Assembly: GCA_029204225.1 (NCBI GenBank) | Contig: CM055094.1 | Span: forward strand, 21,626,346 to 21,690,345 | DNA: 64,000 nt | Origin: Diphasiastrum complanatum | Taxonomy: Eukaryota; Streptophyta; Lycopodiopsida; Lycopodiales; Lycopodiaceae | Direction of reading: 5' to 3' | Shown here: positions 2,026 through 62,028 of the stretch, piece by piece | Layout: each line of letters begins with the position of its first letter | How positions within the stretch are numbered: the first letter of the stretch is position 1 | The notes under the pieces: generated by a model | What the model was told of the DNA's origin: nothing | Seen by the model: only the letters and a program-made list of their open reading frames with translations | Database searches by the model: none | Translations under genes and position numbers: made by a program

Positions 2026-3768
2026 TCAGGAATAGTGGGCATCATGCTTATGATATTGCTCGCGCAGCCACTTGGAGCAGGTTCGAGTCAGCATTTGTCT
2101 TCGACCAGCAAATGCTTTTGATCTCTGGGTGTAAGCCTTATCAGCATTGATGATAAAGCCTAAAGTGCACATCTCTTTGAAGATTTGTATGGGGTCTGCA
2201 GGAAAGTATTGTATCCGTAAATAGATCCGTGTATCCTCCATGTGAAGCGCCGGTTTGTTGGGATTGATGAAAAATTGTGGATCCTGCTCAAACCTTCGGC
2301 CCATGACAGTCATCAGAAACTGGCAGAACTTGTGTTGTAGCTTGATTGTAGGATCGTCAGAATCGGAAGTTAATTTGCAAAAATTCTTGATGGATGTATG
2401 ACATTCCTTCTGAGAAGAGAACGAGCCATCTATTATCGCAAAGTTGCAAGGATATGCTGATATGTTGTCTTCCGATCTCCATGCTAGCGCTCGTCTTCTA
2501 CGAAAACTTGGGTCGAAAGGAGGATCATTCTGAATTTGCTTTGTTGATTGATCAAGCATTTCATAGACGTACGTATCTTTGAGAAATGGAGCTCTCAAAC
2601 CGGTCGACGCAATTAAATCTGGCTGAGAAGATCTCCCGATCGAATTAGATGCCGTCGTTGGAACTGACTTGTCCCCGTCTTTTCGTCCTATCAGAGTCGA
2701 CTTACTGGCATGCTTATGATTTTGCTCACGTAGCCAGTTGAAGCAGTTTTGAGTCAGTATTTGTCTTCGACCAGTAAATGCTTTTGATCTCTGGGTGTAC
2801 ATGTAACCCTCATCAGCATTGATGATAAATCCTGAAGTGCACATCTCTTCGAAGATATGTATGGAGTCTGCAGGAAAGTATTGAATCCGTAAATAGATCC
2901 TGGTATCCTCCATGTGAAGGACCGCTTTGTTGGGATTGATGGAAAATTGTGGATCTTGCTCAAACCTTTGGCCCATGACAGTCATCAGAAACTGGCAGAA
3001 CTTGTGTTGTACCTTGATTGTAGGATCGCGAGAATCGGAACTCAGTTCCCAAAAATTATTGATTGATGTATGACATTCCTTCTGAGAAGAGAACGAGCCA
3101 TCTATTATCGCAAAGTTGCAAGGATATGCTGATATGTTGTCTTCCGATCTGCATGCTCGTCTTCTACATCGAAAGAAGGATCATTCCGGACTTGCTTTGG
3201 TGCTTACTCAAGCCTTTCATTCACATGCGTATCTTTGAGGACTGGAGCTCTCCAACCGGTAGACGCCATTAATTCTGGCTGAGAAGAGCTCCCGATCAAA
3301 TTAGATGCCGTCGTTGGAACTAACTTGTCCGCGTCTTTGCGTCCTACCAGAATCGAATTACTAATATCATGTGCCTCCAAATCTCTTCCGCATATAGATT
3401 TCGTAGTTTCTGATATTTTGGCCAAACGGATTTTCTCAGCCGCCGATACTATGTTCATTTCTAGGTCCTGCTCCATCTTCCTAAGTCGATGCTGGATCAA
3501 CAATCCTTTTCTGAGAGTCTTCAGCCTCTTGTAAATGACGAAAATAAGAGGTGAAATCAGAAGGACAGAGAACATCGATAATGCAGAGAGAGAGAGAGAG
3601 ATATTCCATGCATTGCATTCTATTTGTACTATTTCGGGTTAGACGTTGAGGCATTGTAGTCATATGTATAGAGCATCCCATCCTTAAAGGAGAACTTGTG
3701 ACCATTCTCTAGGTGACTTGGATAAGCCCGCCCTCCATTCATTTCAAAGTCAAGAATAATCCATGTCC
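2026..3768 (-). pseudogene. Family A unrecognised protein, copy 1 (broken)
   Basis: I do not recognise the protein. Read leftwards from about 3575, it has an N-terminal hydrophobic helix (FSVLLISPLIFVIY), a basic stretch, a charged probably helical segment of about 50 residues, then two near-identical 222-residue units. Each unit carries TASTGWRAP-like, FRRRRA, AIIDGSFSSQKE, HKFCQFLMTVMG and YLRIQYFPAD motifs. Frame 3575-3204 is open through the junction that is TGA in the other copies (here TTA) and ends at a Q-to-stop change. A short deletion near 3160-3175 breaks unit 1. Unit 2 is open from 2985 to 2026 and retains the complete C-terminus (KHDAHYS then stop), missing elsewhere. The leader to 3768 includes a 17-nt AG run. 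Confidence 0.7.
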
Positions 3769-5065
3769 CTTCGGCCCATGACAGTCATCAGAAACTGGCA
3801 GAACTTGTGTTGTAGCTTGATTGTAGGATCGTCAGAATCAGAAGTTAATTTGCAAAAATTCTTGATGGATGTATGACATTCCTTCTGAGAAAAGAACGAG
3901 CCATCTATTATCGCAAAGTTGCAAGGATAAGCTGATATGTTGTCTTCCGATCTCCATGCTAGCGCTCGTCTTCTACGAAAACTTGGGTCGAAAGGAGGAT
4001 CATTCTGAATTTGCTTTGTTGATTGATCAAGCATTTCATAGACGTACGTATCTTTGAGGAATGGAGCTCTCCAACCGGTAGACGCAATTAAATCTGGCTG
4101 AGGAGAGCTCCCGATCGAATTAGATGCCATCGTTGGAACTGACTTGTCCCCTTCTTTTCGTCCTATCAGAGTCGACTTACTGGCATGCTTATGATTTTGC
4201 TCACGTAGCCAGTTGAAACAGTTTCGAGTCAGTATTTGTCTTCGACCAGTAAATGCTTTTGATCTCTGGGTGTACATGTAACCCTCATCAGCATTGATGA
4301 TAAATCCTGAAGTGCACATCTCTTCGAAGATATGTATGGAGTCTGCAGGAAAGTATTGAATCCGTAAATAGATCCTGGTATCCTCCATGTGAAGGACCGC
4401 TTTGTTGGGATTGATGGAAAATTGTGGATCTTGCTCAAAGCTTTGGCCCATGACAGTCATCGAAAACTGGCAGAACTTGTGTTGTAGCTGGATTGTAGGA
4501 TCGCGAGAATCGGAACTCAGTTCCCAAAAATTATTGATTGATGTATGACATTCCTTCTGAGAAGAGAACGAGCCATCTATTATCGCAAAGTTGCAAGGAT
4601 ATGCTGATATGTTGTCTTCCGATCTCCATGCTCGTCTTCTACGAAATCTTGGGTCGAAAGAAGGATCATTCTGGACTTGCTTTGGTGCTTGCTCAAGCCT
4701 TTCATTCACGTGCGTATCTTTGAGGACTGGAGCTCTCCAACCGGTAGACGCCATTAATTTTGGCTGAGAAAAGCTCCCGATCAAATTAGATGCCGTCGTT
4801 GGAACTCACTTGTCCGCGTCGTTGCGTCCTACCAGAATCGAATTACTGATATCAAGTGCCTCCAAATCTCTTCCACATATAGATTTCGTAGTTTCTGATA
4901 TTTTGGCCAAACGGATTTTCTCAGCCGCCGATACTATGTTCATTTCTAGGTCCTGCTCCATCTTGCTAAGCCGATGTTGGATCAACAATCCTTTTCTGAG
5001 ACTCTTCAGCCTCTTGTAAATGACGAAAATAAGAGGTGAAATCAGAAGGACAGAGAACATCGATA

Positions 5066-29949: not shown

Positions 29950-30768
29950 TCATGAGAACAAAAAAATGGGTCTATATGAGACAAGGTGTATATATTGCAA
30001 AAAGTGAAAAGGAAGGTCTCCCCTTTTATCATATTTGGACAGATGTGTACAACCGGTAATTGGGTTAAAGGTAATTGTAATATTCAGAAAGTTCACCAAA
30101 TTACATGTGTTGTCGTTTCCGTCTATCTCAAGGTATTCCAGGGGATAGATCCAAAAAGGATTGTCAGGTTTTCTTGGTTGAGTCTTGTCTAGGAAATGTC
30201 CAACCGTATGATTATTGATAAAGCATATATCGTCAATGTACCTGAACGAATATTTGAAGTCGTTTATAAATTTAATTTCCCCTAATCTTGCAAGCCCCTT
30301 AATAAACTGCATTTTTAAAAAAGAAAGGTGCCAATTACAAGACATTGGTGAATATGAAAAACCCATTGGTATTCCCCCGACCTGTCGCCAAGTATGATCC
30401 CCAAGTCTGATAATGCAATTGTCCATCAAATAGGAATTCCAAATGCATAAGGTATTCTTGCGGTCTATAGTACTCCATTCATATGAACCTGTATTTTACG
30501 AAACCCATTTAAAATTATTGGTTCCAGATATTTGTTTGTATTTGAGCAATTTGATTTTGGAAATTTTAAATGCCAAAAAAATCATTTCAGTCATAATAGT
30601 TTTCAAATCGTCAATCCCGTTCAAAGGAATATTGCTTTTTTGGGGGTAACCTAATTCTTTGCTTGCTGGTTTTTTGAGTTTGTAATGCAATTTCAGGCTG
30701 AAATTTTCAGCACACAAGGCTTGTAGGAGGGCGAGTTCCTGCATCCATCTAATGTGTGGTTTCGACAC
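29950..30768 (-). pseudogene. YIDD reverse transcriptase, copy 2
   Basis: One continuous frame of about 273 codons with a single nonsense codon: TAA replaces an AAA Lys codon after FKWVS (30496-30498). It keeps an intact GIPMG (about 30362-30376), which copy 3 has lost, then SPMSCN, RYIDDICFINN (YIDD at 30229-30240), FWIYPLEYLEI, FLNITITF and YDKRGDLPF. The thumb-side end stops at CTCATATAGACCC. No GIY-YIG endonuclease, RNase H or integrase was seen on either side. Upstream on the same strand lie (TA)n, minisatellite, promoter array and an E remnant. Confidence 0.75.
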
Positions 30769-31394
30769 ATTTTGGTGCTGGTTTTTTACATTTGATACTT
30801 GCTATTTTTTGTGTCTTGTAGGGCACATTTAGGGTTTGAAAAAGTTTATCTTCTTGGCTGGTTTTTATGGCAAGAGATTTGAGCCCACCTATATATATAT
30901 ATATATATATCTCTAGGTCCACTCAAGCCTACGTGGCACAGGGCCCAGTTGACTTGACATACAAGGTTATGGTAGGCCTACATGGCTTGCCACATGGCAA
31001 CCCTCAAGCCTGCATGATTTGCCATGTGGTAGACCTACGTGGCTTGCCATGTGGTAGTGTGCGATAGGCTTCGCAAATAGTAGACCACACGTAGGCAGAG
31101 CCTGGTTAGCTTGCCAGCCTATGATGGGCCTACGTGGCTTGCCACGTGGCTAGCCCCAAGCCTGCATGACTTGCCGCATGGCAGTGATACGTGACTTGAC
31201 ACGTGGGCACCTATGACAACATTGGTCAATCGCAGGCCTATGTGGCCTGCTACACAAGTCTATGGTAGGCCATGTGGTAAACCACACAAGCCTATGGTAG
31301 GACTATGTGGTTGTAGTTGTAGCCTCAACTCGTCATATGTTGACCTTTCTGAAATCCCTGGAATCATCGGCCATTGTACAATCCCCGGGAATGG
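30769..31394 (-). repeat. RT leader, (TA)n and CATGTGGC minisatellite
   Basis: 30769-30889 is the RT 5' region, including one TTTAGGGTTTG. 30890-30910 is a TA run. 30915-31330 is an array of diverged units built around GCCACGTGGC/GCCATGTGGC and CAAGCC.TGTAGGC. It corresponds to 38440-39250 and 61800-62030, but here the histone-like ORF between promoter and minisatellite is deleted. Confidence 0.65.
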
Positions 31395-31800
31395 ACTTAT
31401 ATAGGAGGAAACAGTTGGCACGAGTGATTTCCAGCGACACGTGGCCCAGTCAGTAGCTGACATGTGGAACCACACATTTGTATACGCATGTGTGAAACTG
31501 CACGTCTAGATCAACACGTGTGGGATCCCATATGGGGACACGTGGCCGAATGGATCAGCGACATGTGTTCTTGCACGTATCGGCTCGCACGTGTGGTCAC
31601 ATGGCCCAATCAGTAACTGACGTGTGGGACCACACTTCTGTATCCGCACGTGTGAAACTTGCACATGTGGCCATGTGGTCGAATGGTTTGGTGACGTGTG
31701 TTCTGGCACGTGTTAGCTCGCACGTGTGGGCACATGGCCGAATGGAAGACTGACGTGTATTGTAGCACGTGTGGTCTCACACGTGTGGATGGTTGTATTA
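31395..31800 (-). promoter_or_regulatory. G-box/hexamer promoter array, copy 1
   Basis: On the minus strand TATATAAG (31396-31403) is preceded by about 400 bp with nine CACGTG cores and at least three ACGTCA hexamers (read as TGACGT on the plus strand). Other sites are near-variants (CACATG, ACGTAT). The arrangement matches 60650-61070. Downstream of the TATA box about 30 bp of leader remain before divergence. Confidence 0.55.
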
Positions 31801-31892
31801 CGCGCCATAGATCTGATCCGTTGTTGGATCGACGAGTGTACGGCTTGGGTTTTATTGGTTTTAGCTATATAAATGTTGTTTGATCAGTTAAA

Positions 31893-32260
31893 ACATTTCG
31901 CTAAGTTTTGGATTTTCACTCCTTGTAGCTCTTGGTGTGTGAACCAAATGCCATTCCACCTTAAAATCACCTATTCTAGGAACATTGAGTGGTGTGTCGC
32001 TCATATGATTCTTAATTATCTCTAGATATTCTGTTTTACTAAAAATCCAAAATAGAATTTCATGATTTCTTTAAAACCTGTTTGAAACTTGTTTCCTGTC
32101 TTTTGTCCTTTGGTGAGCTGGTAAGGTAGTTCCTTTCAGATTTTTTCTTGACGGTGGAGCATATTTTGTGGGAAGATCAATATGGAGATGATATTTAGAC
32201 ATCTTAATAATCGATAGATTAATCTAGTAGAAAACCAACTTGTTATATATCTTGTAAGCG
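31893..32260 (-). pseudogene. Gene E remnant (both ends, middle lost)
   Basis: Minus strand: the start MSKYHLHIDLP (about 32193-32161) through LPAHQRTKD (about 32095), then an 8-bp filler and a jump to the last exon (MSDTPL.VPRIGDFKVEWHL to LSEMF, stop near 31893). About 1.4 kb present at 58.99-60.38 kb is missing. A 1-base loss relative to that copy also shifts the last exon. Confidence 0.55.
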
Positions 32261-33010
32261 ATTAAAACTCGTCTTAATTATAAAAAAAAATTAATTGGAA
32301 AAGTTTGAAATGACCTTGGCACTCTTTTTGATCCATCGCACTCCAAGTTTCTTGCTTTATATGCAAAATCAAAGCTTTGCAGTTATGAGCAAAATTAGCA
32401 AAATATTTTTTCAATAGATGTGTGTTGAAATTGCAAATTTCTGAATTGCAAAACTTTGAAATAAACTTGCCGCTCCATTTGAAACAATACACTTCGTATT
32501 TTCTGAATTTCAAGATTCACGTTGGCACTCATTGTGATCCAAAATATTCAAAGTTTCTTGCCATGATTTTCAGATCGATAAGACTGTTTTTCTTTTATGT
32601 GAACGCTTTGAGTAGTTGGAAAGAAAACTTTGATGTGCAATACGATTTGCATTTACATGAGAAGTTATGTTAGTTAATGGTAGAAAATAGAATCCTGAAG
32701 TATGGACCCCACGCATTGCGGCTATCCAACTTCCAGTTAACTACATACGTTACTAGTGAGGTCAAGCTCTATATCATCTGAGTCTGTTTCATCTGATGAA
32801 GCATGACGCTTCCCTCATATCTTGGTCCTTTGCCTGGATTGTTGTGTTGGGGGTGCTTGGACCAGTGTTATCTTAGCACATTTGAATGTAGCTTGTGATA
32901 TTATTGGTTCGATATTCTAGTAGCTTTTTTGCACCATTTAAGAAGAGAAAGAGAGCACAATCAAATAATGATGCAATAGGTCCTAGAAAAATGTAAATTT
33001 GTTGTTCCGG
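32261..33010 (-). repeat. Region upstream of E
   Basis: Shared with 52436-53350 and 58261-58859. It holds diverged units with GGATCA-A...GCCAA...AAACTTTT.CAATT and, farther out, a short frame with a basic then acidic composition (RTK.R.KRHASSDETDSDD) that recalls a nuclear protein but is broken here. Otherwise no gene seen. Confidence 0.45.
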
Positions 33011-36087: not shown

Positions 36088-37590
36088 ATGAATGGAGGGC
36101 GGGCTTATTCAAGTCACCTAGAGAATGGTCACAAGTTCTCCTTAAGGATGGGATGCTCTATACATATGACTACAATGCCTCAACGTCTAACCCGAAATAG
36201 TACAAATAGAATGCAATGCATGGAATATCTCTCTCTCTCTCTCTGCATTATCGATGTTCTCTGTCCTTCTGATTTCACCTCTTATTTTCGTCATTTACAG
36301 GAGGCTGAAGAGTCTCAGAAAAGGATTGTTGATCCAACATTGGCTTAGGAAGATGGAGCAGGACCTAGAAATGAACATAGTATCGGCGGCTGAGAAAATC
36401 CGTTTGGCCAAAATATCAGAAACTACGAAACCTATATGCGGAAGAGATTTGGAGGCACATGATATCAATAATTCGATTCTGGTAGGACGCAAAGACGCGG
36501 ACAAGTGAGTTCCAACGACGGCATCTAATTTGATCGGGAGCTCTTCTCAGCCAGAATTAATGGTGTCTACCGGTTGGAGAGCTCCAGTCCTCAAAGATAC
36601 GCACGTGAATGAAAGGCTTGAGAAAGCACCAAAGCAAGTCCAGAATGATCCTTCTTTCGACCCAAGATTTCGTAGAAGACGAGCATGGAGATCGGAAGAC
36701 AACATATCAGCATATCCTTGCAACTTTGCGATAATAGATGGCTCGTTCTCTTCTCAGAAGGAATGTCATACATCAATCAATAATTTCTGAGAACTGAGTT
36801 CCGATTCTCGCGATCCTACAATCCAGCTACAACACAAGTTCTGCCAGTTTCTGATGACTGTCATCGGCCAAAGGTCTGAGCAAGATCCACAATTTTCCAT
36901 CAATCCCAACAAAGCAGTCCTTCACATGGAGGATACCAGGATCTATTTACGGATTCAATACTTTCCTGCAGACTCCATACATATCTTCGAAGAGATGTGC
37001 ACTTCAGGATTTATCATCAATGCTGATGAGGGTTACATGTACACCCAGAGATCAAAAGCATTTACTGGTCGAAGACAAATACTGACTCGAAACTGCTTCA
37101 GCTGGCTACGTGAGCAAAATCATAAGCATGCCAGTAAGTCGACTCTGATAGGACGAAAAGACGGGGACAAGTCAGTTCCAACAACGACATCTAATTCGAT
37201 CGGGAGCTCTTCTCAGCCAGATTTAATTGCGTCGACCGGTTGGAGAGCTCCATTCCTCAAAGATACGTACGTCTATGAAATGCTTGATCAATCACCAAAG
37301 CAAATTCAGAATGATCCTTCTTTCGACCCAAGTTTTCGTAGAAGACGAGCGCTAGCATGGAGATCGGAAGACAACATATCAGCATATCCTTGCAACTTTG
37401 CGATAATAGATGGCTCGTTCTCTTCTCAGAAGGAATGCCATACATCCATCAAGAATTTTTGCAAATTAACTTCCGATTCTGACGATCCTACAATCAAGCT
37501 ACAACACAAGTTCTGCCAGTTTCTGATGACTGTCATGGGCCAAAGGTTTGAGCAGGATCCACAATTTCTCATCAATCCCAACCGATATCA
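36088..37590 (+). pseudogene. Family A, copy 3 (most complete frame)
   Basis: The best copy. From 36254 a single frame runs about 445 codons with only two TGA codons: 36506-36508 (after GRKDADK, shared with two other copies) and 36788-36790 (INNF-stop, where others have TGG Trp). It has an N-terminal hydrophobic helix (about residues 2-15), a basic segment, a charged helical segment to residue 84, then repeat unit 1 and most of unit 2, offset by exactly 666 nt (222 codons). The frame leaves homology at LINPN (about 37582), where it is cut by the promoter array. Membrane anchoring is inferred from the helix only. Confidence 0.7.
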
Positions 37591-38041
37591 TGGGATTGAT
37601 CTAGACGTGCAATTTCACACATGCATATACAAACGTGTGGTTCCACATGTCAACTATTGACTGGGCCACATGTGGCTGGGATTCACACGTGCCAACTTTT
37701 TTCTCCTATATAAGTCCATTCCCGGGGATTGTATAGGTTTTCGCGTAATTTGCTGTCATATTTGATTGCTTCCATACGACCTGCATTCGTGATATCGCCA
37801 TCATGCGAGCGACCTCATCCCCGGGCCTATTTCTTACACCCTCTCACGTCGAAGCGATATCAGCCTGACTTTCCCAGTATCGCCATCATGCAAGCACCTG
37901 CCTCTCCCCGCCTGTCTCTGCCACTCTCTCACGTTGTAGCGATATCACCCTTAGAGTTCTCAGTGTCGCCATTACGCGAGATAATTTAGCTCTCTCTTCT
38001 GCTGTATCTCTGTCCTCGCATGGTATAGATATCCAGCCTCA
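37591..38041 (+). promoter_or_regulatory. Histone-like promoter and 5' leader, copy A
   Basis: Only the last 110 bp of the G-box array remain (one CACGTG at 37686-37691) because family A is fused here. TATATAAG is at 37707-37714. The 5' leader carries three imperfect 85-bp units, marked by TATCGCCATCATGC-like motifs at 37793, 37878 and 37964, and upstream ATGs. It ends at the ATG at 38042. Confidence 0.5.
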
Positions 38042-38500
38042 ATGGCTCGGACGAAGCAAACTGCTAGGCTTACCCATTTTGTTCAATCGTCCCGTCCACA
38101 GACATCTGAACCCATACGTCTGCAAAGACGCGGAAGACCTCGCCGTCCATGGTTGAGGGGCATTAGGGCCTTGTAGAGGTACACCAAACTTGTGATCCTG
38201 AAAGCAGCCTTGTACCGGGCTGTGAGGGAGGTTACACAAGATATGACCACACATCTGCCCTATGCAGTGAGGTGGAATATTGCTACATTGGAGGCCCTCC
38301 ATATTGCATACGGGGACTTCCAGACAAAATTGTTTGAGGATTCGATGCTGTGTTCCATTCATGGCAAGAGGGTGACACTGATGCCCAAGGACATGCTTCT
38401 TGTCATGAGGTTTCAAGACACCTATGACAGCGGTATGCCACATGGCAAATCATGCAGGCTTGAGGGTTGCCATGTGGCAAGCCATGTAGGCCTACCATAA
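38042..38500 (+). pseudogene. Histone H3 / CENH3-like ORF, copy A
   Basis: 152 codons with one TAG (codon 45, 38174-38176; CAG in copy B). Residues 1-9 are MARTKQTAR, identical to histone H3. Residues 29-33 form an AT-hook-like RRGRP. From about 46 to 124 the sequence follows the H3 fold: AVREVTQDM for the end of alpha-1 and the loop, a Trp at 78, then ALHIAYGDF..KLFED, and HGKRVTLMPKD for alpha-3. CENH3-type signs are loop 1 about four residues longer than canonical H3, Trp where H3 has Phe, and a D after the alpha-2 AY.. stretch. The last 28 codons come from the minisatellite, not from histone. H3-fold membership is strong; CENH3 assignment is moderate. Confidence 0.8.
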
Positions 38501-39240
38501 CCTTGTATGTCAAGCTAACTGAGCCCTGTGCCACGTAGGCTTGAGTGGACCTAGAGATCTATATATATATATATAGGTGGGCTCAAAAGTTGCCACTTGG
38601 CAAACCACACAGGCCTACCATAGGCTTGCGTGGCAGGCCACATAGGCATGGCATGTTTCTGATGCTTCCTACGTAAGCATGTCGTAGGCTACCACATAGG
38701 CTTGCCATAGGCTTGTGTGGCAAGCAAACCAGGCTCTGCCATGTAGGCTTGAGTGGAGCTAGAGAGAGAGAGCTGGGGCTCCCAAGTTGCCATGTGGCAA
38801 GCCATGTAGGCATGTCATGAGATAAACCATAGGCTTGCGTGACAGGCCACATAGGCATGGCATATTTCTGATGCTTCCCATATAAGCATGTCGCAGGATA
38901 CCACATAGGCTTGCCATTGGCTTGTGTGGCATTCCAACCAAGCTCTTCCATGTAGGCTTGAGTGGAGCTAGAGAGAGAGAGCTGGGGCTCCTAAGTTGCC
39001 ATGTGGCAAGCCATGTAGGCATGTCATGAGATAAACCACACAGGCTGGGGACTTGCCATGTGGCAAGCCATGTAGGCCTATCATAGGCTTGCGTGGTAGG
39101 TCATATAGGCATGACATAGACTTGATGCTAGTATGTTCATGCTGGTATGTTGCAGTCTGCCATATAGGCTTGACATAGGCTTGTGTGGCAAGCCAACTAA
39201 GCTATACCACATGGGTTTGCCATGTAGGCTTGAGTGGAAT

Positions 39241-41699: not shown

Positions 41700-43461
<1,762 letters not shown>

Positions 43462-52435: not shown

Positions 52436-53370
52436 CAAACAAGATGGCAAACACTCATCAATTTTTCTGTGCATGATTCGAGCCGGATTGTCTTCATGCC
52501 CAAATTCCTAGAAATTGGAGATACCGGAACAACAAATTTACATTTTTCTAGAACCTATTGCATCATTATTTGATTGTGCTCTCTTTCTCTTACCTTAAAT
52601 GGTGCAAAAAAGCTACTAGAATATCGAACCAATAATATCACAAGCTACATTCAAATGTGCTAAGATAACATTGGTCCAACCACCACCAACACAACAATCC
52701 AGGCAAAGGACCAAGATACGAGCGAAGCGTCATGCTTCATCAGATGAAACAGACTCAGATGATATGGAGCTTGACCTCACTAGTAACGTATGTAGTTAAC
52801 TGGAAGTTGGATAGCCGCAACGCGTGGGGTCCATACTTCAAGATTCTATTTTCTACCATTAACTAACATAACTTCTCATGTAAATGCAAATCGTATTGCA
52901 CATCAAAGTTTTCTTCCCATCTACTCAAAGCGTTCACATAAAAGAAAAACAGTCTTATCAATCTGAAAATCATGGCAAGAAACTTTGAATATTTTGGATC
53001 ACAATGAGCGCCAACGTGAATCTTGAAATTCAGAAAATACGAAGTGTGTTGGATCAAATGGAACGGCAAGTTTATTCCAAACTTTTGCAATTCAGAAATT
53101 TGCAATTTCAACACACATCTATTGAAAAAATATTTTGCTTATTTTGCTCATAACTGCAAAGCTTTGATTTTGCATATAAAGCAAGAAACTTGGAGTGTGA
53201 TGGATCAAAAAGAGTGCCAAGGTCATTTCAAACTTTTCCAATTAATTTTTTCTATAATTAAGACGAGTTTTAATAGATTACAAGATATATAACAAGTTGG
53301 TTTTCTACTAGATTAATCTATCGATTATTAAGATGTCTAAATATCATCTCCATATTGAAGTCATGTCAAC
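52436..53370 (+). repeat. Region upstream of E, plus-strand copy
   Basis: Contains a short frame with PPPTQQSRQRTKIRAKRHAS followed by an acidic DETDSDDMELD run (about 52677-52790), then the GGATCA-type diverged units and, near 52995-53150, a frame NVNLEIQKIRSVLDQMER. It reaches the E start codon region (MSKYHLHIE, about 53333-53360) and is cut there by minisatellite and (TA)n sequence. Confidence 0.45.
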
Positions 53371-53490
53371 TAGGCCCTGTGCCACGTAGGCTTGAGTGGA
53401 CCTAGAGATCTATATATATATATATAGGTGGGCTCAAATCTCTTGCCATAAAAACCAGCCAAGAAGATAAACTTTCTCAAACCCTAAATA
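53371..53490 (+). repeat. Minisatellite edge and (TA)n before RT
   Basis: CCACGTAGGCTTGAGTGGAC, then a TA run (53411-53426) and GGTGGGCTCAAA. The same edge occurs at 30890-30960 (minus), 38520-38585 and 61880-61925, linking the histone-like unit to the RT unit. One CAAACCCTAAAT lies at about 53480-53491. Confidence 0.65.
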
Positions 53491-54351
53491 TGCCCTACAA
53501 GACACAAAAAACAGCAAGTATCAAATCTAAAAAATCAGCACCAAAATGTGTCGAAACCACACATTAGATGGATGCAAGAACTCGCCCTCCTACAAGCCTT
53601 GTGTGCTGAAAATTTCAGCCTGAAATTGCATTACAAACTCAAAAAACCAACAAGCAAAGAATTAGGTTACCCCCAAAAAAGCAATATTTCTTTGAACGGG
53701 ATTGACGATTTGAAAACTATTATTTCTAAAATGAGTTGTTCGGCATTTAAAATTGCCAAAATGAAATTGCTCAAATACAAACGAATATCCAGAACCAATG
53801 ATTTTAAATGGGTTTCGAAAAATACAGGTTCATATGAATGGAGTACTATAGACCGCAAGAACACTTTATGCATTTGGAATTCCTATTTGATAGACAATTG
53901 CATTATCAGACTTGGGGATCATACTTGGCGACAGGTCGGGGGAATACCAATGGATTTTTCATATTAACCAATGTCTTGTAATTGGTACCTTTCTTTTTTT
54001 AAAATGCAGTTTATTAAGAGGCTTGCAAGATTAGGGGAAATTAAATTTATAAACGACATCAAATATTCGTTCAGGTACATTGACGATATATGCTTTATCA
54101 ATAATCATACGGTTGGACGTTTCCTAGACAAGACTCAAGCAAGAACACCTGACAATCCTTTTTGGATCTATCCCCTGGAATACCTTGAGATAGACGGGAA
54201 CGACAACACATGTAATTTGGTGAACTTTCTGAATATTACATTTACCTTTAACCCGATTACCGGTTGTACACATCTATCCAAATATGATAAAAGAGGAGAC
54301 CTTCCTTTTTGCTTTTTGCAATATATACACCTTGCCTCATATAGACCCTAA
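53491..54351 (+). pseudogene. YIDD reverse transcriptase, copy 3 (longest)
   Basis: One frame of about 285 codons, open upstream to a stop at about 53487, so the true start is unknown. Order: basic Gln/Lys-rich start, WMQELALLQALCAENFSL, SWT-like EWSTIDRKNTLCIWNSYLID, GGIPMD (53938-53955; Gly to Asp in the usual GIPMG), an in-frame TAA (53965-53967; TCA Ser in copy 2), then FRYIDDICFINN (YIDD 54076-54087), FWIYPLEYLEI, FLNITFTF and YDKRGDLPF. The motif order matches RTs near the Penelope-like/TERT side rather than LTR elements. No endonuclease domain was seen. Confidence 0.75.
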
Positions 54352-57394: not shown

Positions 57395-58260
57395 TGGCTA
57401 TCAGAGCCCGTTTCGATTGCATATTGCTTATAACCACATCGACAGATTTTCCAGTTCATGTTACCTCCTAACCAAAATTTTGTTTATATTATCCCTATTT
57501 CTGGAGCTGACCTCAATACATTTGACTTCCCTAGGGGACCAAACACAGTCAATATGACCCTCAAAAAGATTGAATCCACAACATACTTCAAATATAGAGA
57601 CCCCTCAGTGGACAAACGGGAAAAAAAGATGGTTACCGTATCGAGGTCATAAATGATAAGCCCTTAGCTGCTCCGTGCGCCTATCTAACGAAATATACAT
57701 AGGGCTATAGGTCCAAGATCACGCGTATCCCCATGAAAATATTCCACATGATGGCTGATTCTAAACTACACGATCAGAACCTTTATGATTGGGCCCAGTT
57801 TGCTTCCAACTGTCTCCATGACTATATCAAGAACAAGCAAACCTCCAGTCATTGGGCTATCTTCTGATAGATGTCACTTTGCAGCAGTTGAGCCACTGAC
57901 CTCGATTTTGAGACCACTTGATGCTAGCAGATAAAAGCTTGGGAGACTCCCTCAGAACCACCCAATAATACCAACTCTACTTCCAGGCCTATTGCAACAG
58001 ATTCCACGCAAGCGGCTTCTCAAAAGAGAAAGAGTTCCTTCTCTCCACAAGGGCCAACTGCAAAGCACCAAACGGTCGACCTAGTGAAGCTTACATCGAG
58101 AAAGACACCCATGTACTCTATGTCACAGACGAAGGATCGATACAAGCGAAGTGTCATGCTTCATCAGATGAAACAGACTCAAATGATATGGAGATTACAT
58201 TCGAGGAGTTCCATGGCCCAAAAGGGCTATCTAATAAATGCCACGTAAGAGAGAGAAATC
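57395..58260 (+). pseudogene. Module U protein fragment with extended 3' part
   Basis: U blocks to about 57960 with frameshifts, then sequence not present in the other copies. A frame without ATG at about 57968-58264 reads YQLYFQAYCNRFHASGFSKE, KCHASSDETDSNDMEITFEE and FHGPKGLSNKCHVRERNH stop. The DETDSND stretch is shared with the region upstream of E, suggesting that U and the E upstream frame were parts of one larger unit. No domain recognised. Confidence 0.45.
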
Positions 58261-58859
58261 ATTGAATTTTAAAACTCCGACCGAGTTTTTGGTCTGCCCA
58301 CACAACTCCGATGACTTGACCTCACTAGTAACATATGTAGTTAACTGGAAGTTGGGTAGCCGCAACGCATGGGGTCCATACTTCAAGATTCTATTTTCTA
58401 CCATTAACTAACATGACTTCTCATGTAAATGCAAATCGTATTGCACATCAAAGTTTTCTTTCCATCTACTAAAGCGTTCACATCAAAGAAAAACACTTAT
58501 CGATCAGCAAATCATGGCAAGAAACTTTGACTATTTTGGATCACAATGAGTGTCATCGTGAATTTAAATTTTTGAAATTCAGAAAATACGGAGTGTGTTG
58601 GATCAAATGGAGCGGCAAGGTTATCTCAAACTTTTGCAATTCAAAAATTTGCAATTTCAACATACATCTATTGAAAAAATATTTTGCTTATTTTGCTCAT
58701 AACTGCAAAGCTTTGATTTTGCATATAAAGCAAGAAACATAGAGTGTGATGGATCAAAAAGAGTGCCAAGGTCATTTCAAACTTTTCCAATTATTATTTT
58801 TTTTATAATTAAGACGAGTTTTAATAGCTTACAAGGTATATAACAAGTGGGTTTTCTAC
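58261..58859 (+). repeat. Region upstream of E
   Basis: Third copy of the upstream region with the GGATCA-type units; leads without interruption into E. The frame 58527-58742 is not conserved as an ORF at 53.0 kb. Confidence 0.45.
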
Positions 58860-60590
58860 TTGATTAATCTATCGATTATTAAGATGTCTAAATATCATCT
58901 CCATATTGATCTTCCCAGAGAATATGCTCCACTGTCGAGCAAACATCTGAAAGGATCCACCTTACCAGCTCACCAAAGGACGAAAGACATAAAACATTGT
59001 GATCTATGGGTTGATGGATGTTTGTATCCAATCGATCCAAGCTCAATGCAACATCCAAATTTTAGATCGGTCACACAACTCATATTGTTTTTGTGTGAAG
59101 GACACAATAGTCTATTGCGTTATTGTGAAAGATTGAAAAGTTATGGCATTAGTTATTAAATGAAAAAAATCCACTGTTTGGAAAATATGTTGAATGGTTT
59201 GCTTACTGACTACCAAGAAAAAGAAACTTTTTTTTGCAAACAAAAGAAGAAAATGAAATCTTGAAGATAGATAATTCTCGTTTGTAAGATATTATATTAA
59301 ACCTCAACCAAGAAACTGACAATATGAAACTAATTGTACAAACATTGTGTACCTCATATTGTCAAATAAATGTAGAAGTAAACACATTACGGAAGAAAAT
59401 ATTGAACAATAAGCAAAAAAGAGTTATTTTAAAAAGTATTGACGAGCTCTCAACAATTGGGGGTCAACAGAAAAAAAGAATATATGCTTTCAAGTAGGAT
59501 TATGTTTTAAACTATTCATGTGTTTTGTTTCATCTAGCACATCAATGGTTGTGAATTGTTTTTTTCTAAATCTTATTTTTTTTTTTGCAGATAAGCTTTA
59601 GTCACCAATGAAAATCCGAAAGACAAGGACATGATTGGAAAGTCTTTGAGTGCAGTACTTAAAGCCAAGTCAATGACGAGTCTACTTGGAAATCAACGAT
59701 ATTCTCGAATCAAGCCCAAGATTGCAGAGGCCCTTATGGGCGAAGTCGGCAAGATCATTGTCCGAAAATTGATACAAGGAGCATGTGATTATTTTGGTAT
59801 TAGCAGGGATGCATATGACACGATGTTTAAAATTATCAAAGAGGCATTTGGACAAGTACATATAAAACAATTTCCTATTCCCCGGCCCTTTCAAATCAAA
59901 TTAGAGAGGGATGTGTTAAACAGGGGTTTGCAAAACATCATTGGTATTCCTTACCATATCAATGAAATTTATAACTCAAAACATGGCACTTTGTCATATG
60001 ATTCTACCAGTATGTTTGTAGATCTGAATCATTTATAAAGATTTATTGTAAAGTTTTATGGAAACGAAATTGTTGAAAAATTGATATTAGTTCTCCAAGT
60101 TAGATGAATCCGAAGTAATAAAGGGACAAAAGCTGGAAAGGGTTAGTGTTACACTTATGAATGGAACATTAAGCAATACGATAAACTCGGAGAGTCTTGA
60201 TTCAGTGTCCAGTCCGAAAATAATATTTGGTGGTTGGCAACTTTCCAGGTTTAAATCTATTCTATTGAGTACTAGCAACTAATTCATTTTGAGAATTAAT
60301 GGTTTTGTGTTTTAAGCGTTATTGTTTTGTTATTATAGGTCCTAGTTCAATTCTCTGAAAATAGTTCATGATTTTGTGTTTCAAACAGGTTTTAAAGAAG
60401 ATCATGAAATTCTATTTTGGATTTTTAGTAAAACAGAATATCCAGAGATAATTAAGAATCATATGAGCGACACACCACTCACTGTTCCTAGAATAGGTGA
60501 TTTTAAGGTGGAATGGTATTTGGTTCACACACCAAGAGCTAGAAGGAGCCAAAATCCAAAACTTAGCGAAATGTTTTAACTGATCAAACA
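58860..60590 (+). pseudogene. Gene E, unrecognised coiled-coil protein with likely introns
   Basis: Blocks in order: MSKYHLHIDLP to YCERLKSYGISY (58884-59159); after a T-run frameshift, a coiled-coil-like EENEILKIDNSRL...MKLIVQTL...VNTLRKKIL (about 59240-59490); a T-rich stretch ending TTTTTGCAG (near 59590), a good splice acceptor; a compact domain 59631-60038 (KPKIAEALMGEVGKIIVRKL, GACDYFGISRDAYDTMFKII); LDESEVIKGQKLERVSVTLM to IIFGGWQLSR (about 60099-60250); CAG/GTTTAA donor and TTTCAAACAG acceptor near 60248 and 60388; last block FKEDHEILFW to LSEMF stop (60576-60578). I could not make all splice phases agree, so the gene is probably decayed. Family unknown. Confidence 0.5.
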
Positions 60591-60649
60591 ACATTTATAT
60601 AGCTAAACCAATAAAACCCAAGCCGTACACTCGTCGATCCAACAGCGGA

Positions 60650-61070
60650 TCAGATCTATGGCGCGTAATACAACCATCCACACATGTGAGACCACACGTG
60701 CTACAGTACACGTCAATCTGCCATACGGCCGCGTGCCCACACGTGCGAGCTAAGACGTGCCAGAACACACGTCACCACACCATTCGACCACATGGCCACA
60801 TGTGCAAGTTTCACACGTGTGGATACAGAAGTGTGGTCCCACACGTCAGTTACTGATTGGGCCACGTGACCACACGTGCGAGCCGATATGTGCAAGAACA
60901 CATGTCGTTGACCCATTCGGCCATGTGTCCCCACATGGGATCCCAGACGTAATGATCCAGACGTGTAGTTTTACACATGCGTATACAAACGTGTGGTTCC
61001 ACATGTCAGCTATTGACTGGGCCACGTGTCGCTGGGATTCACACGTGCCAACTTTTTTCTCCTATATAAG
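60650..61070 (+). promoter_or_regulatory. G-box/hexamer promoter array, copy 2 (most complete)
   Basis: Seven CACGTG cores (60695, 60740, 60814, 60863, 60873, 61023, 61042) and three ACGTCA hexamers (60710, 60769, 60843), then TATATAAG at 61063-61070. ACGTCA is the hexamer element known from plant histone H3/H4 promoters, and CACGTG is the G-box bound by bZIP and bHLH factors. The array reads as diverged repeats with CCACACGTG and ATTCGGCCACATG themes. It lies between E and the histone-like ORF. Confidence 0.6.
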
Positions 61071-61397
61071 TCCATTCTCGGGGATTGTATAGGGTTTCAC
61101 GTAATTTGCGGTCATGTTAGATTGCTTCCATACGACCTGCATTCGTGATATCGCCATCATGCGACCGACCTCGTCCCTAGGCCTATTCCTTACACCCTCT
61201 CACGTCGTAGCGATATCAGCCTGACTTTTCCAGTATCGCCATCATGCAAGCCCCTGCCTCTCCCTACCTGTCTCTGCCACTCTCTCGCGTTGTAGCAATA
61301 TCACCCTTAGAGTTCTCAGTGTCGCCATTATGCGAGATAATTTAGCTCTCTCTTCTGCTGTATCTTTGTCCTCACATGGTATAGATATCCGACCTCA
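61071..61397 (+). promoter_or_regulatory. 5' leader of histone-like ORF, copy B
   Basis: 327 bp between TATA and ATG with the same three 85-bp units as copy A (TATCGCCATCATGC-like marks). Several short upstream ATGs. No intron signals that I can defend. Confidence 0.5.
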
Positions 61398-61856
61398 ATG
61401 GCTCGGATGAAGCAAACTGCTAGGCTTACCCATTTTGTTCAACCGTCCCGTCCCTAGACATCTGAACCCATGCATCTGCAAAGATGCGGAAGACCTCGCC
61501 GTCCATGGTTGAGGGACATCACGGCCTTGCAGAGGTACGCCAAACTTGTGATCCTGAAAGCAGCCTTGTACCGGGCTGTGAGGGAGGTTACACAAGATAT
61601 GACCACGCATTTGCCCTATGCAGTGAGGTGGAATATTGCTGCATTGGAGGCCCTCCATGTTGCATACGAGGACTTCCAGACAAAATTGTTTGAGGATTCG
61701 ATGTCGTGTTCCATTCATGGCAAGAGGGTGACACTGATGCCCAAGGACATGCTTCTTGTCATGAGGTTTCAGAACACCTATGACAACGGTATGCCACATG
61801 GCAAATCATGCAGGCTTCAGGGTTGCCATGTGGCAAGCCATGTAGGCCTACCATAA
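61398..61856 (+). pseudogene. Histone H3 / CENH3-like ORF, copy B
   Basis: Same length and frame as copy A. Start MARMKQTAR (Thr4 to Met). TAG at codon 20 (61455-61457; CAG in copy A); codon 45 is CAG, so the second half is open from 61458 to 61856. The fold region reads ALQRYAKLVILKAALYRAVR, EVTQDM, the long loop ending VRW, then EALHVAYEDFQTKLFED and CSIHGKRVTLMPKDMLL. The AYED here matches the ED of plant CENH3 better than copy A (AYGD). About 17 amino-acid-changing against 4-5 silent differences separate the copies, so neither seems under purifying selection. The C-terminal 28 codons are minisatellite-derived. Confidence 0.8.
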
Positions 61857-62028
61857 CCTTGTATGTCAAGCCAACTGGGCCCTATGCCACGTAGGCTTGA
61901 GTGGACCTAGAGATCTATATATATATTCATGCTGGTATGTTGCAGTCTGTCATATAGGCTTGACGTAGGCTTGTGTGGCAAGCCAACTAAGCTGTACCAC
62001 GTGGGTTTTCCATGTAGGCTTGAGAGGA

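Follow-up and report, generated by a model that had tools for sequence, protein, structure and literature searches.

A 64,000-nt stretch of the 1.745-Gb genome assembly of the clubmoss Diphasiastrum complanatum (Lycopodiaceae), C3:21626346-21690345, here called the window, contains two histone H3-like open reading frames (ORFs), copies 1 and 2. Both lie in remnants of a DNA transposon with terminal inverted repeats (TIRs), and our main conclusion, to which we give a probability of about 0.85, is that the H3-like gene is a constitutive accessory gene of this transposon lineage. The initial annotation had described the two frames as H3-like; they are present and read as it described. They sit in a gap-free 968-nt match of 94.2% identity (37603-38570 vs 60959-61926). 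The profile search it had proposed gives E-values of 2.6e-14 and 7.4e-17 for stop-free pieces of the two ORFs against Pfam Histone (PF00125), and the copy-2 piece matches H3.3 in PDB at E 9.8e-16. By these scores, the histone-fold match is far above chance. When aligned to H3.3, copy 2 has a 4-residue insertion in loop 1 that ends in RW, with Trp before alpha-2. An AlphaFold model of a window H3 piece was too poor to use (predicted local distance difference test score, pLDDT, of 53) and was discarded.

Comparison with a dispersed copy of the element, L023, shows that the window holds four remnants (Table 1), one of which, the copy-2 remnant, keeps the left TIR. Both H3 frames leave the element homology at element positions +327 and +329, so the C-terminal domain is absent from both, and the last ~23 codons of each ORF fall beyond the homology to the parent element. 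Both in-frame stops are TAG. In copy 2 the later portion of the transposase, which is catalytic, is gone as well. The copy-2 remnant and the third remnant have the same junction between element positions -3770 and -907, and these two therefore probably share one deleted founder as their ancestor. By sequence comparison, the window copies are non-autonomous, pseudogenised derivatives of the element family that we call family A. Repeats around GCCATGTGGCAAGCCATGTAGGC (window 38440-39200 and 61800-62000) take the element's place after the shortened H3 frames.

Table 1. Element-derived features of the window (element coordinates are relative to the histone ORF)
Feature	Position	Strand	Remarks
H3-like ORF, copy 1	38042..38500	+	TAG at 38174-38176 (codon 45); element homology stops at 38429
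H3-like ORF, copy 2	61398..61856	+	TAG at 61455-61457 (codon 20); element homology stops at 61787; C-terminal domain lost
TATA-box-like TATATAAG	37707..37714	+	328 nt upstream of copy-1 ATG; putative function
TATA-box-like TATATAAG	61063..61070	+	328 nt upstream of copy-2 ATG; putative function
Element remnant with H3 copy 1	37596..38429	+	element -480..+327, 84.8% identity
Deleted transposon copy with H3 copy 2	58198..61787	+	two element segments joined; comparison with L023
First segment of deleted copy	58198-60523	+	element -6105..-3770, 92.9% identity
Second segment of deleted copy	60523-61787	+	element -907..+329, 84.7% identity
Left TIR	58198..58219	+	3 mismatches to CATTAYAGGAGTTCCAAGGCCC; 0 in 100 shuffles
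Transposase remnant	59607..60522	+	three overlapping matches, profile 25-289 of 552
Third remnant	31375..32766	-	-907/-3770 junction plus another deletion; H3 ORF absent
Transposase piece in third remnant	31945-32067	-	
Fourth remnant	52770..53358	+	element -5988..-5394 only, 93%

The complete element was reconstructed from 20 dispersed family-A copies with their flanks, taken from a list ranked by protein score (some were picked for a long open frame) and aligned on the histone ORF, with upstream extensions obtained for 7 of the 20. The fullest copies share sequence from approximately -6105 to +3873. Both ends were found in three copies, the left end only in two more and the right end only in three more; they are inverted repeats that begin CATTA and are alike at 23 of 29 positions. 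The left part is a multi-exon transposase. To its right come a gene on the minus strand, a spacer rich in CACGTG and the H3 gene, and the right part holds more minus-strand frames. On this alignment, the full family-A element is a TIR DNA transposon of ~10 kb. Retrotransposition of the element was rejected because of the TIR ends and the transposase introns.

The histone frame itself is intron-free in the copies read and encodes a 357-residue protein made up of an H3 tail and fold, a basic Pro/Ser linker and a conserved C-terminal domain. Family-A copies keep the MARTKQTAR start and its K4. The whole frame is open from the ATG in 3/20 copies (L020, L026 and L027), and the full ORF of L027 matches PF00125 at E 1.5e-22. 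An annotated D. complanatum protein, O6H91_14G014700, has a 100% match at two places on contig C14 and groups with family A, an example of how transposon genes can enter the histone annotation of lycophytes.

A 36-nt family-A histone motif has 395 matches in the genome (at most 3 mismatches; reversed control, 0), which agrees with the initial annotation's view that an H3-type histone was multiplied by a mobile repeat. Among the first 100 places listed, 60 are between C3:18.53 and 21.76 Mb, and by this distribution the truncated type is one that multiplied locally in a single chromosome region. A canonical H3 query returned, among the matches listed, 13 host H3 loci at 97-99%, a broken copy at 82%, eight partial matches of 79-93% which may be host H3 exons, and 128 H3-like frames at 44-57%. 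A second family, D, has at least 119 listed copies at 78-100% identity. Families A and D, at the least, each run to 100 copies or more, which would amount to a very large expansion of histone genes.

The H3-like frames recur beside the transposase. Two transposase queries found 81 distinct loci among the matches listed, and 32 of these lie no more than 12 kb from a listed H3-like frame, with 0.15 pairs expected by chance. Thirty of the 32 pairs are convergent and two are tandem; spacing is 2.3-3.1 kb in 30 pairs (0.6 and 7.5 kb in the other two), and none of the 32 has a canonical H3 locus nearby. In family A, an H3 frame lies downstream on the same strand at 19/41 exact left ends, compared with 0 in control arrangements.

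The transposase appears to have a RAG1/Transib fold, judging from its metagenomic relative P0008, whose model shows that fold. RAG1 is the DNA-cutting enzyme responsible for rearranging human antibody genes. The DDE triad, C(2)C and H(4)H motifs are complete in P0008 and P0010, and the order of the DDE/zinc motifs is readable in the L019 copy despite its stops. Searched against PDB as a profile, the transposase alignment matched nothing meaningful, so the RAG1 link relies on the modelled fold, the spacing of the motifs and what we take to be a C-terminal sequence likeness to RAG1. None of the 13 transposase relatives has a precomputed Pfam domain, and no transposase is among the best 25 of the 30 weak Pfam families matched. 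The structure matches listed include no kelch, PHD or CACTA structures, which is no test of those families, and the fold match may also be compatible with EnSpm, Chapaev and Mirage, lineages that lack a solved structure. A viral origin was rejected: viral contigs scanned with the transposase alignment turned up no relative.

The fusion architecture is also kept between families. Family D (represented by L037) has a complete 337-residue frame that is 30% identical to family A, C-terminal domain included. Family B (L034, with one stop) keeps a MARTKSTAH start and the fold at 47%, with fourfold sites saturated. Searching with the full fusion protein returned three eukaryotic H3 proteins that match 30-34% of the query, none with the C-terminal domain.

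Selection was estimated on 19 dispersed family-A copies (L009-L028, with L016, a duplicate of L021, dropped). The first count used a simple mutation model and was redone with sequence context after CG/CHG decay had been found; the recount weakened two transposase exons. The C-terminal part has an omega of ~0.72 (p 6e-5), and the H3 part, on which the copies had been ranked, has 0.53 (0.57 without the eight copies with long frames). In the ORF region of the same copies, C>T change amounts to 12.0% at CG, 9.6% at CHG and 2.5% at CHH sites, and 135/171 in-frame stops in family D are TAG. Deamination of methylated CG and CAG gives this C-to-T and TAG pattern, so host silencing, with methylation of the family-A copies, is likely.

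The initial annotation had derived the window ORFs from a centromeric CENH3 gene that was captured and might yield dominant-negative CENH3 fragments or small RNAs. Its observation of a longer loop 1 and a Trp stands for family A (+4 residues, Trp before alpha-2), where we also take the stretch SMLCSIH..RVTLM to resemble Arabidopsis CENH3. The observation fails for the other families: family D has an insertion of one residue and Phe, and family B has neither insertion nor Trp. Identity of family A to canonical H3 (42-49%) is about the same as to plant CENH3 (41-47%), and the MARTKQTAR start and K4 that family A retains speak against CENH3. A 97-column tree, built with plant CENH3 sequences other than the host's, sets families A, B and D apart (80/77) from a branch holding H3 and plant CENH3 (the plant CENH3 pair, 94/89). 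The phylogeny that had been suggested as a check thus separates the element histones from CENH3, with weak support. We rejected CENH3 capture as the best reading because the loop is not shared between the families and because of the tree, and we consider it very improbable. Element H3 and plant CENH3 are alike in the H3 fold and, for family A, in loop 1 and Trp; they differ in that the element H3 exists in many copies as part of a transposon and carries a C-terminal domain of its own. One further H3-like frame, L036 (C10:47288700-47290050), has a stretch rich in proline ahead of the fold, lacks any recognised C-terminal domain, and falls on the H3 side of the tree with weak support.

A captured gene could also be a passive passenger, i.e., a host H3 gene or mRNA copy that a DNA transposon took up and amplified without its serving any function. 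Such transduplication has a precedent in fungal hAT elements and would fit both the intron-free histone frame and the stops in the window copies and many others (26/119 listed family-D copies are stop-free). However, the H3-like gene looks unlike a passive passenger because it recurs beside the transposase, at near-constant spacing, and keeps a conserved extra domain. Two families at 30% identity retain the same fusion, and purifying selection on its C-terminal part is close to that on the transposase. We therefore regard passive carriage as improbable, preferring an accessory gene of the transposon. Several observations weigh against this preference and against the classification of the transposase. 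Of the transposase loci, 49/81 have no listed H3-like partner, a count that must be read knowing that only 136 non-canonical H3-like places were listed out of 6060 first-look candidates. In family A, and in B as inferred from matches, transposase and H3 are on the same strand. A target-site duplication (TSD) was seen by eye in 0/3 copies with both ends, a sample that is small and may be rearranged. The fold was read from P0008, which is 37% identical to the element transposase and was modelled at a mean pLDDT of 62, with very low confidence around the last E; C(2)C is found in 12/13 relatives, and the Hx4H and E motifs are reached in 2/13. The protein search with the full fusion turned up no relative of its C-terminal domain outside the D. 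complanatum genome. Long frames had been favoured in the choice of copies, so the C-terminal omega was recomputed without the 8/19 copies with frames of at least 330 residues, giving 0.80 (p 0.018). Intergenic control frames range from 0.84 to 1.22, the lowest reaching p 0.058, and two of three transposase exons are non-significant (p 0.10 and 0.07). The dispersed and cluster groups were also compared by their majority differences: 9 are synonymous and 18 nonsynonymous (ratio 0.57), indistinguishable from within-group changes (Fisher p 0.31 and 0.82) and hence uninformative.

As to how an accessory histone might act, we infer that the fusion protein would be made from the element's own promoter, at the TATA-like site before the ATG. 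Its histone fold would then enter nucleosomes or an H3-H4-like complex, and the C-terminal domain would link the transposase, the element ends or host factors to chromatin, or keep element chromatin permissive. We consider this mode of action possible rather than probable. The main alternative to tethering is that the H3 tail and fold mimic acts as a decoy, occupying host histone readers, writers or chaperones and so weakening silencing, with no tethering of the transposase. Families A, B and D all keep K4 while the K9 of H3 is lost, as a decoy might, and the methylation-type decay of family A makes silencing a likely pressure. A decoy nevertheless leaves the conserved C-terminal domain and the recurrent transposase pairing unexplained, and in family D the tail past K4 is conserved only in part; we think it unlikely.

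H3 genes in DNA transposons are already known from fungi: hAT transposons of Pyrenophora tritici-repentis carry an H3-like gene, H3L, with 26 such genes in the reference genome (Manning et al. 2013, PMC3538342), H3-carrying hAT elements occur in Pseudocercospora, Cercospora and Sphaerulina (Dhillon et al. 2019, PMC6710886), and Pseudocercospora fijiensis has hundreds of H3-hAT copies inactivated by repeat-induced point mutation (PMC6710886). There, as here, a TIR DNA transposon carries and multiplies an H3-like gene, with a shortened form also in Pyrenophora. The fungal transposase is of hAT type, whereas ours appears to be of RAG1/Transib fold, in a plant host and in several divergent families, with H3 fused to a conserved extra domain and convergent with the transposase in most listed pairs. 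RAGL/Transib elements (Martin et al. 2020, PMC7204232; Kapitonov and Koonin 2015, PMC4411706; PMC8355894) share the fold, the order of DDE/zinc motifs and a second gene convergent with the transposase, here in 30 of the 32 listed pairs. However, the partner found here is an H3 fusion instead of a kelch/PHD protein (the element's minus-strand frames were scanned in part), the TIR starts CATTA instead of the RSS-like (recombination signal sequence-like) CAC, the 5-bp TSD is seen in 0/3 copies, and the host is a plant. The PHD finger of RAG2 reads the H3 K4 tail (PMC8355894). The CMCT group (EnSpm/CACTA, Mirage, Chapaev, Transib, Plavaka, ESTA and Lanisha; PMC12730594) also has C(2)C and H(3-4)H between the second D and last E, and its elements that carry the chromatin-modifying gene TET/JBP offer a parallel (PMC12730594), but our transposase has no significant Pfam transposase match. 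EnSpm/CACTA elements differ further in their CACTA ends and 3-bp TSD (0/3 copies here). Among the mostly open-access papers listed for transposon histones, CENH3, plant Transib/RAG, Diphasiastrum and genome reports, none presented a histone borne by a plant transposon, which is weak evidence of absence.

Taken at its widest, our tentative proposal, which we would put at somewhat below even odds, is a RAG1-fold transposon lineage in a vascular plant in which transposase and second gene converge in the manner of RAG1 and RAG2, and this second gene joins H3 to a new domain. The element would bring its own H3 with K4, linking transposase and chromatin through a transposon-made nucleosome subunit. 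If so, vascular plants would harbour a RAG1-fold transposon with a two-gene convergent layout, and a transposon could retain a histone as a lasting partner gene. How transposases meet nucleosomes would become testable, and RAG1's coming to work with a chromatin-reading partner would gain an outside comparison.

Two other repeated ORFs lie in the window. One, at 29950-30429 (-) with a second copy near 53404-54348, has the motifs GGIPMGFSYSP and FRYIDD and resembles a reverse transcriptase, perhaps a Penelope-like one; neither Pfam, searched at E 1, nor PDB, searched at E 10, gave a match for it. The other is an ORF family (MTVMGQRFEQDPQF...) at 2026-4784 (-), 36228-37660 (+) and 42170-42970 (-), with no Pfam match for the one copy tested. 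It has an internal duplication of ~655 nt and adjoins the upstream side of the remnant with H3 copy 1.
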